From Alphaproteobacteria bacterium (lineage in GTDB: Bacteria; Pseudomonadota; Alphaproteobacteria; UBA8366), in the NCBI GenBank assembly GCA_028281325.1, contig JANQKC010000001.1:1-64000 (forward strand): DNA of 64,000 bases, written 5' to 3'. Positions 15,473-20,216 of this stretch are shown here, piece by piece. Within the stretch, counting starts at the first letter, position 1. Each line of letters begins with the position of its first letter. The notes beneath the pieces are model-generated. The model had not been told where the DNA came from. It saw only the letters and a list, made by a program, of their open reading frames with translations, and searched no databases. The position numbers were made by a program, and so were the translations under genes.

Positions 15473-15612
15473 GATCGCGGCCTTTCCGTGATCCGTACTT
15501 AACCATTTAATAATGCGCGGGTTTTATGTTTACGGTGCCTCCGCGCGACAAGGTGGAGGGTTTTGGACGCCATGGGTACCAGGGTCCGTTTCTGCGCAAG
15601 GAATGTCATCGG

Positions 15613-16083
15613 ATGAAAAGAGTCTTGTGTCTGTTCGCCCTGGCGCTGGTCATTTCGTCCTGCGCCGTGACCGACCGCAGGAATAAACTGGCCGTCGCCA
15701 CGGTGACCGGCGGGGTTGCCGGCGCTTTCGTCGGCTGGACGGTTTTCGGCCCTGGCGGTTCCGGTATTCTCGGATCGCTCGTGGTGGGCGGCTTGGGCGC
15801 GGGGGCGGGGTATCTGGCGACCGATACGCTGTTGCCGCGCGAACGCGAATCCTTCCACCGCGCGACCTATCACAGCCTGCAAGGCACGCCGGAAGGCCAG
15901 TCGACCCACTGGAAGAGCAAGGATTCCGGTACGACCGCCAGAATCACGCCGCTGCGCAGTTTTCGCACCAAGGACGGTAAGCTTTGCCGAGAGTTCGTGG
16001 TTGATTTCACGATCGGCAAGTCCCGTGACTCGGTCAAGCGCGTCGCTTGCCGCGGCGTCGACGGGTCTTGGCAAACCATTTGA
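15613..16083 (+). CDS. surface-antigen-like lipoprotein with glycine zipper
   Basis: The 156-residue protein begins with a lipoprotein signal: MKRVLCLFALALVISSC with the lipobox Cys at residue 17. A glycine-zipper region follows (VTGGVAGAFVGWTVFGPGG and GGLGAGAGYLATD), then a C-terminal domain like that of the RT0821/Lpp0805 rickettsial-type surface antigen family (KLCREFVVDFTIG, RVACRGVDGSW). It is likely an outer-membrane lipoprotein. AAGGA at about 15599 fits the ATG at 15613; the longer upstream frame is ignored. Confidence 0.82.
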   Translation: MKRVLCLFALALVISSCAVTDRRNKLAVATVTGGVAGAFVGWTVFGPGGSGILGSLVVGGLGAGAGYLATDTLLPRERESFHRATYHSLQGTPEGQSTHWKSKDSGTTARITPLRSFRTKDGKLCREFVVDFTIGKSRDSVKRVACRGVDGSWQTI

Positions 16084-16107
16084 AGCCACCGAGTCCGCAA
16101 GGGCGAT

Positions 16108-16137
16108 AAAAAAAGGGCCGCGCTCGAAGCACGGCCC
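16108..16137 (-). terminator. intrinsic terminator of the small RNA
   Basis: On the minus strand the GGGCCG/CGGCCC stem (16137-16132 with 16120-16115) closes over a GTGCTTCGAGCG-type loop and runs straight into seven T (16114-16108). It is the strongest intrinsic terminator seen in the window and forms the 3' end of the small RNA. It could also stop read-through from the sox operon. Confidence 0.85.
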
Positions 16138-16189
16138 AAGTCTAGGGAGGAAACGCCCAAGAAGTGCGGCAAGGTAAGATTTACCTTGC
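16108..16189 (-). ncRNA. MmgR/alpha-r8-like small regulatory RNA
   Basis: About 82 bases on the minus strand fold as three parts. First is a perfect 9-bp 5' hairpin, GCAAGGTAA and TTACCTTGC around a 3-base loop (16169-16189). Next comes an unpaired stretch containing UUUCCUCCCU (16153-16144), which is complementary to a Shine-Dalgarno sequence. Last is a strong terminator. This order and the exact UUUCCUCCCU match what I recall of the alphaproteobacterial alpha-r8 family, whose Sinorhizobium member MmgR (about 77 nt) limits phasin/PHB granule production. The family assignment is from memory and not from a covariance-model search. The gene lies alone downstream of soxG. The 5' end is inferred from the hairpin and could differ by some bases. 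Confidence 0.65.
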
Positions 16190-16228
16190 AATGCAACATG
16201 AACTTGGACGACTCATGTTGCAACGCAA
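16186..16228 (-). promoter_or_regulatory. paired TTGCA-n-TGCAA palindromes at the small RNA promoter
   Basis: TTGCA-A-TGCAA (16186-16196) and TTGCA-A-CGCAA (16218-16228) start exactly 32 bases apart, about three helix turns. A third imperfect copy lies at 16321-16330. GCAACATGA (16193-16201) and TCATGTTGC (16213-16221) also form a perfect 9-base inverted repeat. Read on the minus strand, TTGCAA and CATGTT are 17 bases apart and could be -35 and -10 boxes of the small RNA. A dimeric regulator is expected to bind; PhaR-like regulators of polyhydroxyalkanoate genes recognise similar TGC/GCA-rich sites, but that link is inference. Confidence 0.55.
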
Positions 16229-16357
16229 TATATGGCAAAGCATGCCCAAATATTCAAGGTCAATCGGCGTAAAATCGGGGGATAACTTGTCGCACCCGCG
16301 CATGGCTGGGTTGCAGTTGCTGCATTGCAACAGAGCCTTGAGGGATTCGCGCCGGAT

Positions 16358-17062
16358 TCAACCGCGCGTTTCGCGCAAGGCCCGCAAGGCCGACCGGCCT
16401 GCCAAGCCGCCGAGATATTCGTCCATGGCATCGACCAGAACATCCCATAAATAGAGCGCCGAGGCGCTGTCGGCCAGGATATGGAAGGTGGGAACGTTGC
16501 CGTGGTCCTGCCGGACGATCTGCGCCGAGAGTCGCGCGAGGGACGTTTGCGCCACGGCGAGATCTTCGAATCGGCCGATCCGCAGGTCCACGCCGCAAAG
16601 CTTTTGCAGACAAGCGGGTGCCTTGCCCCCGCATAACACGAACCAGACATGGCTATCGCGACGCGGGACCGGATAGCAGCCGCCGGCGGGAGGGCGGTTC
16701 TCGAGGCGGCTGACGGTGTTGTCCCGGCTGTCGATGTCGCCGAGGATTGTCACCTCGGTGTCCGCCAACCGGATGGCCAACGCGCCGTCGGTTTGCCGCT
16801 CCGCGCGGTTGTTCCGGGCCGGTATCGTGACGGCCTGCCGGGACAGCCATTCGAGTGTCTGCGGCCCTTTGAAGCCGATGCGCGGCAAGGGCGACAAGTC
16901 GATGAGCGCCATGCGGGACGGCAGGCCGCCGCGTCCCGGATAACCGTCGGCGATGGCGGTATCGCCGCAATCGGCGAAGACCGCGCCGGCGTCGCGCAAA
17001 CGGCGATACACGAAGCTGCGGCGGGAGTATTGCGTCGGGTCGACCGGCACGGCGCTGCTCAT
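16358..17062 (-). CDS. soxG: sarcosine oxidase gamma subunit
   Basis: The 234-residue protein matches SoxG-type subunits, which share the aminomethyltransferase (GcvT-like) fold and complete the heterotetramer. Conserved-looking segments include MALIDLSPLPRIGFKGPQTLEWLSRQAV and LADSASALYLWDVLVDAMDEYLGGL. ATG 17062 overlaps the soxA stop by four bases (ATGA), so it is the last gene of soxBDAG. SoxG is the least conserved subunit and the call leans on operon position. Confidence 0.85.
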   Translation of the reverse strand: MSSAVPVDPTQYSRRSFVYRRLRDAGAVFADCGDTAIADGYPGRGGLPSRMALIDLSPLPRIGFKGPQTLEWLSRQAVTIPARNNRAERQTDGALAIRLADTEVTILGDIDSRDNTVSRLENRPPAGGCYPVPRRDSHVWFVLCGGKAPACLQKLCGVDLRIGRFEDLAVAQTSLARLSAQIVRQDHGNVPTFHILADSASALYLWDVLVDAMDEYLGGLAGRSALRALRETRG

Positions 17063-19950
17063 CCTGCCTGCCGCCTGTTCTCTGGGTCGTAGAAGGGCAA
17101 CGCGGCCACCGTTCCTTGGATATAGCGTCCCATCGGCCCCTTGATCAGGATCGGCATGCCCGGTTCCGCCCGGTCGGGCGCGGTATAGGCCATGCCGATC
17201 GGTTGGCCCAGTGTTGGCGACCGGACAATCGAGGTGACGCGGCCGACGATGTCCTCGCCCTTGAAGACCAAATGGCATTCTTCCGGCAACACGGCGGTTT
17301 GCGGCGGAAGCGTGAAGCCCACGAGCACCCGTTCGAGGCCGCGCGCCATTTGAATGTCGATCGCCCGTTTCCCGACGAAGAACGGCTTGCGCTTGCCGAT
17401 CGCCCACCCCATGCCGGCCTCGTGAGGATGGGTCAGGCCGTCGGTGTCCTGGCCGATGATGATATGGCCTTTTTCGAGCCGCAGGATTCGCTGTGCCTCG
17501 ACGCCGAACGGCCGGCAATGGTAGGGCCGGCCCGCGTCGGTCAAGGCGTCCCACAGCGCTTCGCCGTAGCCAGCCGGCACGTGGATTTCGTATCCCAACT
17601 CTCCGACAAAGCCGACCCGCATGATCCGCGCGGGCATGCCGGCGACCGACGCCTCGCCGACCGCCATGTAAGGGAAGCCAGCGGCGGACAGGTCGATGCC
17701 CTCGCAAAGCGGTCCCAGAACCTTGCGCGATTGCGGTCCGGCGATGTTCACCGCGGCGAAGGCGCCGGTCATGTTCGCGATGTCGACCTCAAGACGCCAT
17801 TGCGCGTTCCATTGGAGCATCGACCGGTAGACGCCGTCCGAATTGCCCGTCGTGGCGGTGACGTAGAAATGATCCTGGGCCATGCGGCAAGCGACGCCGT
17901 CGTCCATGACCGTGCCGGTCATGTCGCACATCAACGCGTAGCGTCCCCGGCCGACCGGTTGTTTCGTATAATCCATCGTGTACAGCCGGTTTAGGAACTC
18001 GACGACATCCGGCCCCCGCAGATCGATTCCGCCCAGCGTGGAGACGTCGATCAGTCCGACGCCGTTACGGACCGCGCGGGCTTCGGCGATGGCGGCTTCC
18101 GATAGGTTCGAGCCATAACCGACCGGCCGGAGCCAGTTTCCGGCGACCATCATGCCGGCGCCCGCTTCGAGGTGGCGGTCGTGCATCGGGGTCTTGCGGA
18201 CCGGATCGAAGCCGCGGCCGGCGAGCTGGCCGATCTTCTCCGGAAAGGCCGGCGGCCGGTTCGTCCAACCTTGAGACTCCTGGATCGCTTGCCCGGTTTC
18301 GCGGCAGAGCAGCCGGAGGGCGTTGGTGACCGACTGCCGTCCCTGGCTGGGACCCATGCCGACCGTCGAAAAGCGTTTCAGCAGTTCGATATGGTCGAAT
18401 CCTTCGGCGATGCTGTTGCGGATGTCCTCGGGCGTCAGATCCTCGTCGAAATCGACGAAGGCCTTGCCGTCGCCGGTTTCCGAACAGGGGAAGGGGGCGC
18501 TGACCGATAGTTGCGCCGCATCCGTCTTCGCAGTCGGTTCGCCGTGGCTGCCGGCGGCTCGCCGTCCGGTATGGCGGCCGTGCGCGATGGCGTCATCGGT
18601 GTTCCAAATGCCGGCGAGAGCGCCGGTGGCGTGTATCGTTGGCGGCAGGTCGGCGACCGTGAAGCTGTTCGCGGTCTCGTCATAGGTCACGGCCGCGCCG
18701 GCATGGGCTGCGAGTGATGCCGCCGGTGCCCATCCCACCGCCATGCAGAGCAGGTCGCAGGCGATATGGCGTCGTGCCGGCGTCGCCATGTCGTCCTTCT
18801 CGGCAGGGACGAGATCGACTCCCGCGAGATGATGCCCGCCGGCGTTGGCAATCGCGCGGTCGACCGTAAAGCCTTGCAGGATCGGATATCGGCGCGATAC
18901 CGCTTCCTCCACCCGGGAATCGGGCGCGGCCGCCGTGCGCAGGTCGACGATCGCCTGGACGGTGACGCCGGCCTCGGCGAGATCAAGCGCCACGCCGTAG
19001 CCGTCGCCGTTGACCGTGACGACCACGGCATGCCGGCCGGGCCGGACCGCATAGAGCCACAGCAGCCGCTGCGCCGCCGATCCCATCATGATCCCCGGCA
19101 AATCGTTATTCGCGAACACCATCGGCTGTTCGATCGCGCCGGTCGCCAGGACGACCTGTTCCGCCCGCAGCTTGATCAGCCGGTTGCCGGTGACGACGGC
19201 GAGAAGATTGTCGTCGAAAAGGCCGGTGCAGGTGGCGTCGGTCAGGATAGTTATGCGGTCTTCGACGGCGGCGAGATCCTCGGCGAGGGCGCCGGCGAGG
19301 TCGACGCCCCGCGTCGCCCGGGCGTCGACCCGGGCGTGGTTGAGGGCGCCCCCGAGGATCGGTTGGCGTTCGATCAGCACGACCTGCCGGCCGGCGCGCG
19401 CGGCTTCAATGGCGGCGGCCACCCCGGCCGCCCCCGCGCCGACGACGGCGACCTCGGCAAAGGCGTATTCCTTATCGTAATAACGGCCGCGGACGGCTTC
19501 GTTGACTGTCCCGAGCCCGGCCCGCGCGCGGATGCGTTTCTCCCAGAAGTCCCAGATTCCCCGGGGCTTGTGGAAGGCGCGATAGTAAAAGCCGACGGGC
19601 AGGAACTTGGCGATACGCTCGATCCATTGCCCGCCGTCGCTGCGCAGGCTGCCGGTGTAGTGCTGCCCGGTGACGGCAAGGCCGTCGCTGATCCTGTGGA
19701 GGTCGGCCAGGACATTGGGCTCGTCGGGCAACTGCACCAGCGTGTTCGCGTCGTCGCCGGCCATGCTGAGGATACCGCGCGGGCGATGATATTTGAACGA
19801 CCGGGACAGCAGCCAGATATCGTTCGCGGCCAGCGCGCTGGCGATGGTGTCGCCGGCATAGCCTTCGATCGGTTGACCTTCGAAGCTGAACCGGATGGAC
19901 CGGTCGCGGTCGAGCAGGAGTCCATATGGCGGCGCCAAGCGGGCGGTCAT
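17059..19950 (-). CDS. soxA: sarcosine oxidase alpha subunit
   Basis: The 963-residue subunit has three parts: an N-terminal ferredoxin-like segment (EGQPIEGYAGDTIASAL), a dinucleotide-binding domain with VVGAGAAGVAAAIEAARAG, and a C-terminal aminomethyltransferase-like half with folate-type features (RFVGELGYEIHVPAGYG, GVEAQRILRLEKGHIIIGQ). The complex oxidatively demethylates sarcosine to glycine, passing the methyl group to tetrahydrofolate. The upstream frame is open, but ATG 19950 overlaps the soxD stop (ATGA), fixing the start. Confidence 0.94.
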   Translation of the reverse strand: MTARLAPPYGLLLDRDRSIRFSFEGQPIEGYAGDTIASALAANDIWLLSRSFKYHRPRGILSMAGDDANTLVQLPDEPNVLADLHRISDGLAVTGQHYTGSLRSDGGQWIERIAKFLPVGFYYRAFHKPRGIWDFWEKRIRARAGLGTVNEAVRGRYYDKEYAFAEVAVVGAGAAGVAAAIEAARAGRQVVLIERQPILGGALNHARVDARATRGVDLAGALAEDLAAVEDRITILTDATCTGLFDDNLLAVVTGNRLIKLRAEQVVLATGAIEQPMVFANNDLPGIMMGSAAQRLLWLYAVRPGRHAVVVTVNGDGYGVALDLAEAGVTVQAIVDLRTAAAPDSRVEEAVSRRYPILQGFTVDRAIANAGGHHLAGVDLVPAEKDDMATPARRHIACDLLCMAVGWAPAASLAAHAGAAVTYDETANSFTVADLPPTIHATGALAGIWNTDDAIAHGRHTGRRAAGSHGEPTAKTDAAQLSVSAPFPCSETGDGKAFVDFDEDLTPEDIRNSIAEGFDHIELLKRFSTVGMGPSQGRQSVTNALRLLCRETGQAIQESQGWTNRPPAFPEKIGQLAGRGFDPVRKTPMHDRHLEAGAGMMVAGNWLRPVGYGSNLSEAAIAEARAVRNGVGLIDVSTLGGIDLRGPDVVEFLNRLYTMDYTKQPVGRGRYALMCDMTGTVMDDGVACRMAQDHFYVTATTGNSDGVYRSMLQWNAQWRLEVDIANMTGAFAAVNIAGPQSRKVLGPLCEGIDLSAAGFPYMAVGEASVAGMPARIMRVGFVGELGYEIHVPAGYGEALWDALTDAGRPYHCRPFGVEAQRILRLEKGHIIIGQDTDGLTHPHEAGMGWAIGKRKPFFVGKRAIDIQMARGLERVLVGFTLPPQTAVLPEECHLVFKGEDIVGRVTSIVRSPTLGQPIGMAYTAPDRAEPGMPILIKGPMGRYIQGTVAALPFYDPENRRQAG

Positions 19951-20216
19951 GCGTCCCCCGTTCGCTCGGGCGCGCCGGGGGCATAGGTGCGCAGGATGTC
20001 GTCGGTTCGGGTGTCGCGTTCGGCGATGAACCAATACCCGCTGGCGACATGCATCCACCATTCGCGCACCACCGCGGCGGCGTTGTCTTCGAGGAAGACA
20101 TAGTCGGCCCAGGCGGCGTCCGGCGCGTCGACGGCGGGCATATCCTGGACCGGGCCGCCATAGACGAATTCCTGGATATTGCGGGGGCCGTTCAACGGGC
20201 AGTTAAGGATCTTCAT
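19947..20216 (-). CDS. soxD: sarcosine oxidase delta subunit, zinc site incomplete
   Basis: The 89-residue protein matches SoxD in length, order and motifs: CPLNGPRNIQEFVYGG at the start, WADYVFLEDNAAAVVREWWMH in the middle and TRTDDILRTY at the end. Classical SoxD has CPxCGPR at the N-terminus and a histidine/cysteine-bearing C-terminal segment that bind zinc; here the second Cys is replaced (CPLN) and the HGC-like segment reads HVASG. The zinc site is therefore probably lost. ATG 20216 is chosen over an upstream in-frame ATG. Confidence 0.85.
   Translation of the reverse strand: MKILNCPLNGPRNIQEFVYGGPVQDMPAVDAPDAAWADYVFLEDNAAAVVREWWMHVASGYWFIAERDTRTDDILRTYAPGAPERTGDA

Follow-up and report, generated by a model that had tools for sequence, protein, structure and literature searches.

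MmgR of Sinorhizobium meliloti is a small RNA of 77 nt that restrains the levels of PHB and phasin, directly or indirectly (PMC8401924). Repression of its gene by AniA (PhaR), a protein that senses plastic-like storage granules, is attributed to Ceizel Borella 2018, as cited in PMC12542648, and gel-shift experiments demonstrate the binding of His6-PhaR to the S. meliloti mmgR promoter (PMC12542648, Table 3, Fig 5). The PhaR/AniA motif of this organism, YGCRNYGCR, describes an operator common to phasin and mmgR (PMC12542648). The same RNA family, RF00519, formerly named suhB in Rfam and now mmgR, includes the alpha-r8 RNAs SisA-D of Caulobacter crescentus, and for SisA the same core decamer has been shown to base-pair (PMC12559287).

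The locus described here lies on the minus strand of a 64-kb window, by which is meant the whole stretch of DNA that was analysed. Its RNA shares with S. meliloti MmgR the core GCGUUUCCUCCCUAGACUU, an anti-Shine-Dalgarno decamer, a terminator and a PhaR/AniA-type promoter operator, and with SisA-D the family and the 10-mer pairing core (PMC12559287). At about 115 nt, the predicted RNA is longer than the 77-nt S. meliloti MmgR (PMC8401924), and while the S. meliloti dyad is reported between the -35 and -10 elements (PMC8401924; site in PMC12542648), here one operator covers the predicted start, a second is intragenic and a third lies upstream. C. crescentus possesses four paralogues for which no shared promoter motif is reported (PMC12559287), whereas the genome of the window bears one strong copy with PhaR-like operators. 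The neighbourhood also departs from the usual alpha-r8 position beside an N-formylglutamate amidohydrolase gene (PMC12559287). One flank of mmgR holds a small frame (15526-16083, plus strand) with a weak match to PF16998, the 17 kDa outer membrane antigen (E 9e-6, narrowly short of the cut-off), and the other flank holds a sarcosine-oxidase-like minus-strand operon, with sarcosine oxidase A3 and GCV_T domains in the frame 17059-20061.

Identity of the small RNA gene

A search of the whole window gave a match to RF00519 (MmgR/alpha-r8) at 16100-16174 on the minus strand, covering model positions 1-77 of 77 with 64.5 bits (E 5e-11). This exceeds the gathering score of 41 bits by 23 bits, and it is the sole Rfam match within the window. 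The decamer UUUCCUCCCU (16144-16153) between a hairpin and the terminator, and the Rho-independent terminator with its U tail (16108-16137), are features of the family that are both found at the locus. A sequence-only reading of this DNA had described the minus-strand hairpin at 16169-16189, the decamer and the terminator, all of which are present as claimed, and had taken them for the alpha-r8 pattern. This assignment is borne out by the strong covariance-model match, and in relatives the homologues are kept with the same operator architecture. The presence of an unannotated MmgR/alpha-r8 small RNA gene is thus confirmed at the level of sequence.

A possible second MmgR copy in the same genome (C26:89113) was rejected, as it scores a sub-threshold 30 bits, bears no operator and resembles a different RNA. 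The latter is a short RNA candidate, ACGTCTCCCAGACGTGAAGCCTCCCTGTT followed by a terminator (L235, 1501-1577, minus strand; C26:89113-89189), that is common to L247, L248 and L249, loci in genomes from two other families of the order, and it matches no Rfam family at its gathering score.

Predicted promoter, transcript and operators

The best-scoring promoter pair at the locus has a 17-bp spacer between its -35 and -10 elements, the spacing also chosen by the promoter scan in 121 of 154 mmgR loci, and it predicts a start near 16222, good to a few bases. A start at this place, inside the operator designated O1, implies an RNA of about 115 nt. The features of the locus are as follows:

16108-16222, minus strand: predicted MmgR/alpha-r8 transcript, about 115 nt (RF00519 match; promoter conserved in relatives)
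16252-16257, minus strand: predicted -35 element TTGAAT (promoter scan)
16229-16234, minus strand: predicted -10 element CATATA (CATATT or CATATA at the equivalent place in relatives)
16192-16222, minus strand: hairpin 1, 5'-terminal stem-loop from +1, its 5' arm being the right half of O1 (alignment of 19 relatives)
16169-16189, minus strand: hairpin 2, GCAAGGUAAAUCUUACCUUGC, previously called a perfect 5' hairpin (fold)
16144-16153, minus strand: anti-Shine-Dalgarno decamer UUUCCUCCCU, the alpha-r8 core (sequence)
16108-16137, minus strand: Rho-independent terminator GGGCCGUGCUUCGAGCGCGGCCC-U7 (sequence and fold)
16218-16228, no strand assigned: O1, PhaR-like palindrome TTGCAACGCAA that overlaps the start as predicted, centre -1 (full 21-bp motif; same position in relatives)
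16186-16196, no strand assigned: O2, perfect palindrome TTGCAATGCAA lying within the predicted transcript, centre +31 (motif and conservation)
16320-16330, no strand assigned: O3, upstream site CTGCATTGCAA, centre -103 (motif and relatives)

An extent of about 82 bases, with a start at about 16189, had been put forward earlier; the promoter instead places the start near 16222 and adds a 5'-terminal hairpin to a longer RNA. When starts are predicted from promoters in the same way in Mesorhizobium/Phyllobacterium-type loci, RNAs of 78-85 nt result, near the 77 nt of S. meliloti MmgR (PMC8401924). Against dinucleotide shuffles, the fold has a z of -4.5 for a 106-nt stretch and of -6.8 for the predicted 115-nt transcript. 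The centroid of the 106-nt fold leaves the decamer unpaired, as previously said, whereas the 115-nt fold places it in a weak structure of a few base pairs, so that the description holds approximately.

Hairpin 1 is supported by covariation. In an alignment of 19 relatives from the order, 89.9% of cells are paired, double-sided changes occupy 17 cells compared to 7.3 in shuffles, and the covariation score of 0.310 (0.196 in shuffles) is reached by 0 of 500 shuffles, counts that do not amount to probabilities because the 19 sequences are related. Pairing falls to 56% or less if the partner is slid by 1-3 columns, and the length of the loop varies among relatives, as would be expected of an RNA stem more than of a DNA dyad. 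Where promoter and operator are both good (101 loci), a hairpin begins at +1 in 99%, compared to 57% of shuffles.

With respect to the operators, O2 is a perfect TTGCAnTGCAA and O1 carries one mismatch to it. The full 21-bp PhaR motif of S. meliloti is found nowhere else in the window than at O1 (0.38 matches expected); O2 and O3 fit its 9-bp core. With up to one mismatch allowed, TTGCAnTGCAA occurs six times in the window compared to 1.2 expected, a number reached in 0 of 100 shuffles, and three of the six fall within 145 bp. Genome-wide the pattern shows no enrichment (77 matches, compared to 102 of the reversed control pattern), and reliance is therefore placed on position and conservation. 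The same three sites with the same spacings are found in the same-genus relative G001, 13 of 19 long-form relatives retain the right half-site of O2, and most relatives from the order have a distal O3-like site at about -55 to -123. A fixed looping geometry for O3 was rejected, since relatives differ in its spacing (about 54 to 123 bp) and no helical phasing can be claimed. The two palindromes known from the sequence-only reading do lie 32 bp apart from centre to centre, and their proposed PhaR-like nature agrees with the published motif YGCRNYGCR as well as with the full-length match of O1. Their placement at the promoter was correct for the upstream palindrome, which overlaps the start, but the second lies in the transcribed region, and the third site at 16320-16330 had been missed.

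These data bear on three other explanations of the locus. It is scarcely credible that the RNA is another alpha-proteobacterial anti-Shine-Dalgarno RNA, such as SorY, SorX or similar, instead of MmgR; the SorY and SorX models do match weakly, at 35.3 and 25.2 bits, but these scores are far under their own gathering scores of 111 and 46.6, whereas RF00519 stands well over its own. An RNA beginning near 16189, of about 82 nt and with both near palindromes serving as upstream DNA only, is unlikely. Its length would be nearer to the 77-nt S. meliloti RNA (PMC8401924), and a processed form could begin at this place, but the best-scoring promoter pair, which is kept in relatives, predicts 16222, and the hairpin that covaries, 16192-16222, begins at +1.

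A little less probable still is a true MmgR RNA in which the palindromes at 16186-16196 and 16218-16228 represent the footprint of an RNA hairpin and not PhaR operators. Base pairing in hairpin 1 constrains a portion of each palindrome, and in some relatives (L015, L019 and L023) the second palindrome is degraded with the stem kept. However, conservation extends beyond the stem to the left half-site of O1 and the right half-site of O2, O3 lies outside the transcript altogether, the same motif is present at phaP, phaR and phaC, and at many loci the operator sits between the -35 and -10 elements, where no RNA is made. The locus is very probably a small RNA gene of the MmgR/alpha-r8 family that PhaR represses.

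PhaR and its putative operators in the genome and across the class

The genome of the window encodes a PhaR bearing both PhaR domains, PF07879 and PF05233 (C15:145579). Its phasin gene phaP (L032) has three operators upstream, phaR has the same operator motif upstream, and phaC has one operator-type site about 100 bp upstream. As in the S. meliloti PhaR/AniA regulon, the motif YGCRNYGCR thus marks both phasin and mmgR, and in contrast to that regulon the motif occurs here at phaR and ahead of phaC as well. Among relatives, all 27 phasin upstream regions tested contain the operator (61 sites). The phaR gene (L393) is divergent from a second PhaC-like gene and from a frame of 156 aa whose likeness to PhaE is one of position only, and two PhaR-type sites lie between phaR and these divergent frames.

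The operator is found upstream of 135 of 154 mmgR loci, with 254 sites compared to 57 in shuffles, and at 79 of 99 loci in a class-wide sample; about 12-20% of mmgR loci are without it. Operator centres peak at -21/-20 and at -1/0 of the predicted start in the 154 loci, and the same two peaks are seen in the class sample of 99. In the class sample, the operator accompanies mmgR at 78 of 94 loci where phaR is detected and at 2 of 8 where it is not (Fisher p = 0.001, ignoring phylogeny). G192 and G216 have the operator and no PhaR was found in them; both assemblies are fragmented, and genus or family mates have PhaR. Co-occurrence of mmgR and phaR in the 59 nearest relatives (38/4/9/8, p = 0.003) is partly confounded by genome completeness. 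Three genomes of the same order, G029, G032 and G036 (L240, L241 and L242), carry mmgR within about 5 kb of phaR. Three features are seemingly undescribed in the open literature, namely where the operator preferentially sits across the class, its overlap in sequence with the +1 hairpin, and the arrangement of three sites in this order; subscription papers on alpha-r8 phylogeny may hold some of them.

Predicted targets and the proposed circuit

In the genome of the window, perfect 10-nt complements of the decamer precede an ATG at six distinct sites, compared to 1 for the reversed pattern, and five of the six have a plausible gene. These encode a ketopantoate-reductase-like protein, a short-chain dehydrogenase, a TctC binding protein, a molybdopterin oxidoreductase and a TAXI-type binding protein. 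The match is kept in G001 for the TctC and TAXI genes, and in six relatives solute-binding proteins make up about half of the plausible decamer-matched genes. Such genes are a lead and not proof, because strong ribosome-binding sites resemble the same sequence. Direct targeting of phasin mRNA was rejected, the pairing of phasin leaders with the RNA core being weak and showing no excess over shuffles (mean z +0.29, with some start codons misassigned); the pairing energies are -19.3 kcal/mol for phaP, -28.2 for tctC and -23.8 for the TAXI gene. The targets at this locus are more likely to be uptake genes, for TctC and TAXI solute-binding proteins, than phasin mRNA, and any effect of MmgR on phasin and PHB may be indirect, as is left open for S. 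meliloti (PMC8401924).

Elements resembling the MmgR core also occur near phasin genes. The phasin 3' UTR in G030, G027 and G024 (L237, L238 and L251) contains a conserved CTTCTTCGG-CATGTCCTCCCTTGTCCGGAG-like element and a terminator, scoring about 30 bits with the MmgR model, possibly a 3'UTR-derived anti-Shine-Dalgarno RNA. G005, a genome without a strong mmgR match, carries the exact MmgR core GCGTTTCCTCCCT on the minus strand of its phasin locus (L078), within the loop of a hairpin that resembles a terminator and lies downstream of phasin.

In the circuit proposed here, scarcity of the storage polymer would leave PhaR free to occupy O1 over the start and block the sigma-70-type promoter, perhaps assisted by O2 and O3, which may act cooperatively or by looping. 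Once PHB forms, the granules would draw PhaR away, and repression would be lifted from mmgR as well as from phaP and further PHB genes that have this operator. The RNA, in all likelihood acting together with Hfq, would then cover the ribosome-binding sites of its targets through UUUCCUCCCU. Such a link between small RNA and granule control was marked as inference in the sequence-only reading and was in fact already known, as repression of mmgR by PhaR has been published for Sinorhizobium; the motif found here matches it.

PhaR control of MmgR, previously shown in one rhizobium, is suggested by this promoter evidence to be a general trait of PhaR-carrying Alphaproteobacteria, which would connect the sensing of granules with an anti-Shine-Dalgarno RNA in many lineages not yet studied, and the locus yields exact predictions of start site, operators and targets. 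A broader joint reading is more tentative, and its chances are put somewhat below even: that across the Alphaproteobacteria the downstream half of the PhaR operator, once transcribed, often doubles as the 5' arm of the +1 hairpin, that in the window's order three operators form a switch, and that its outputs are solute-uptake genes and not phasin mRNA. If this is true, a single sequence would bind the repressor as DNA and structure the 5' end of the transcript as RNA, the 3' arm of the hairpin would in the window's order also be part of a second, intragenic operator, and MmgR would act as a granule-sensing brake on carbon import.
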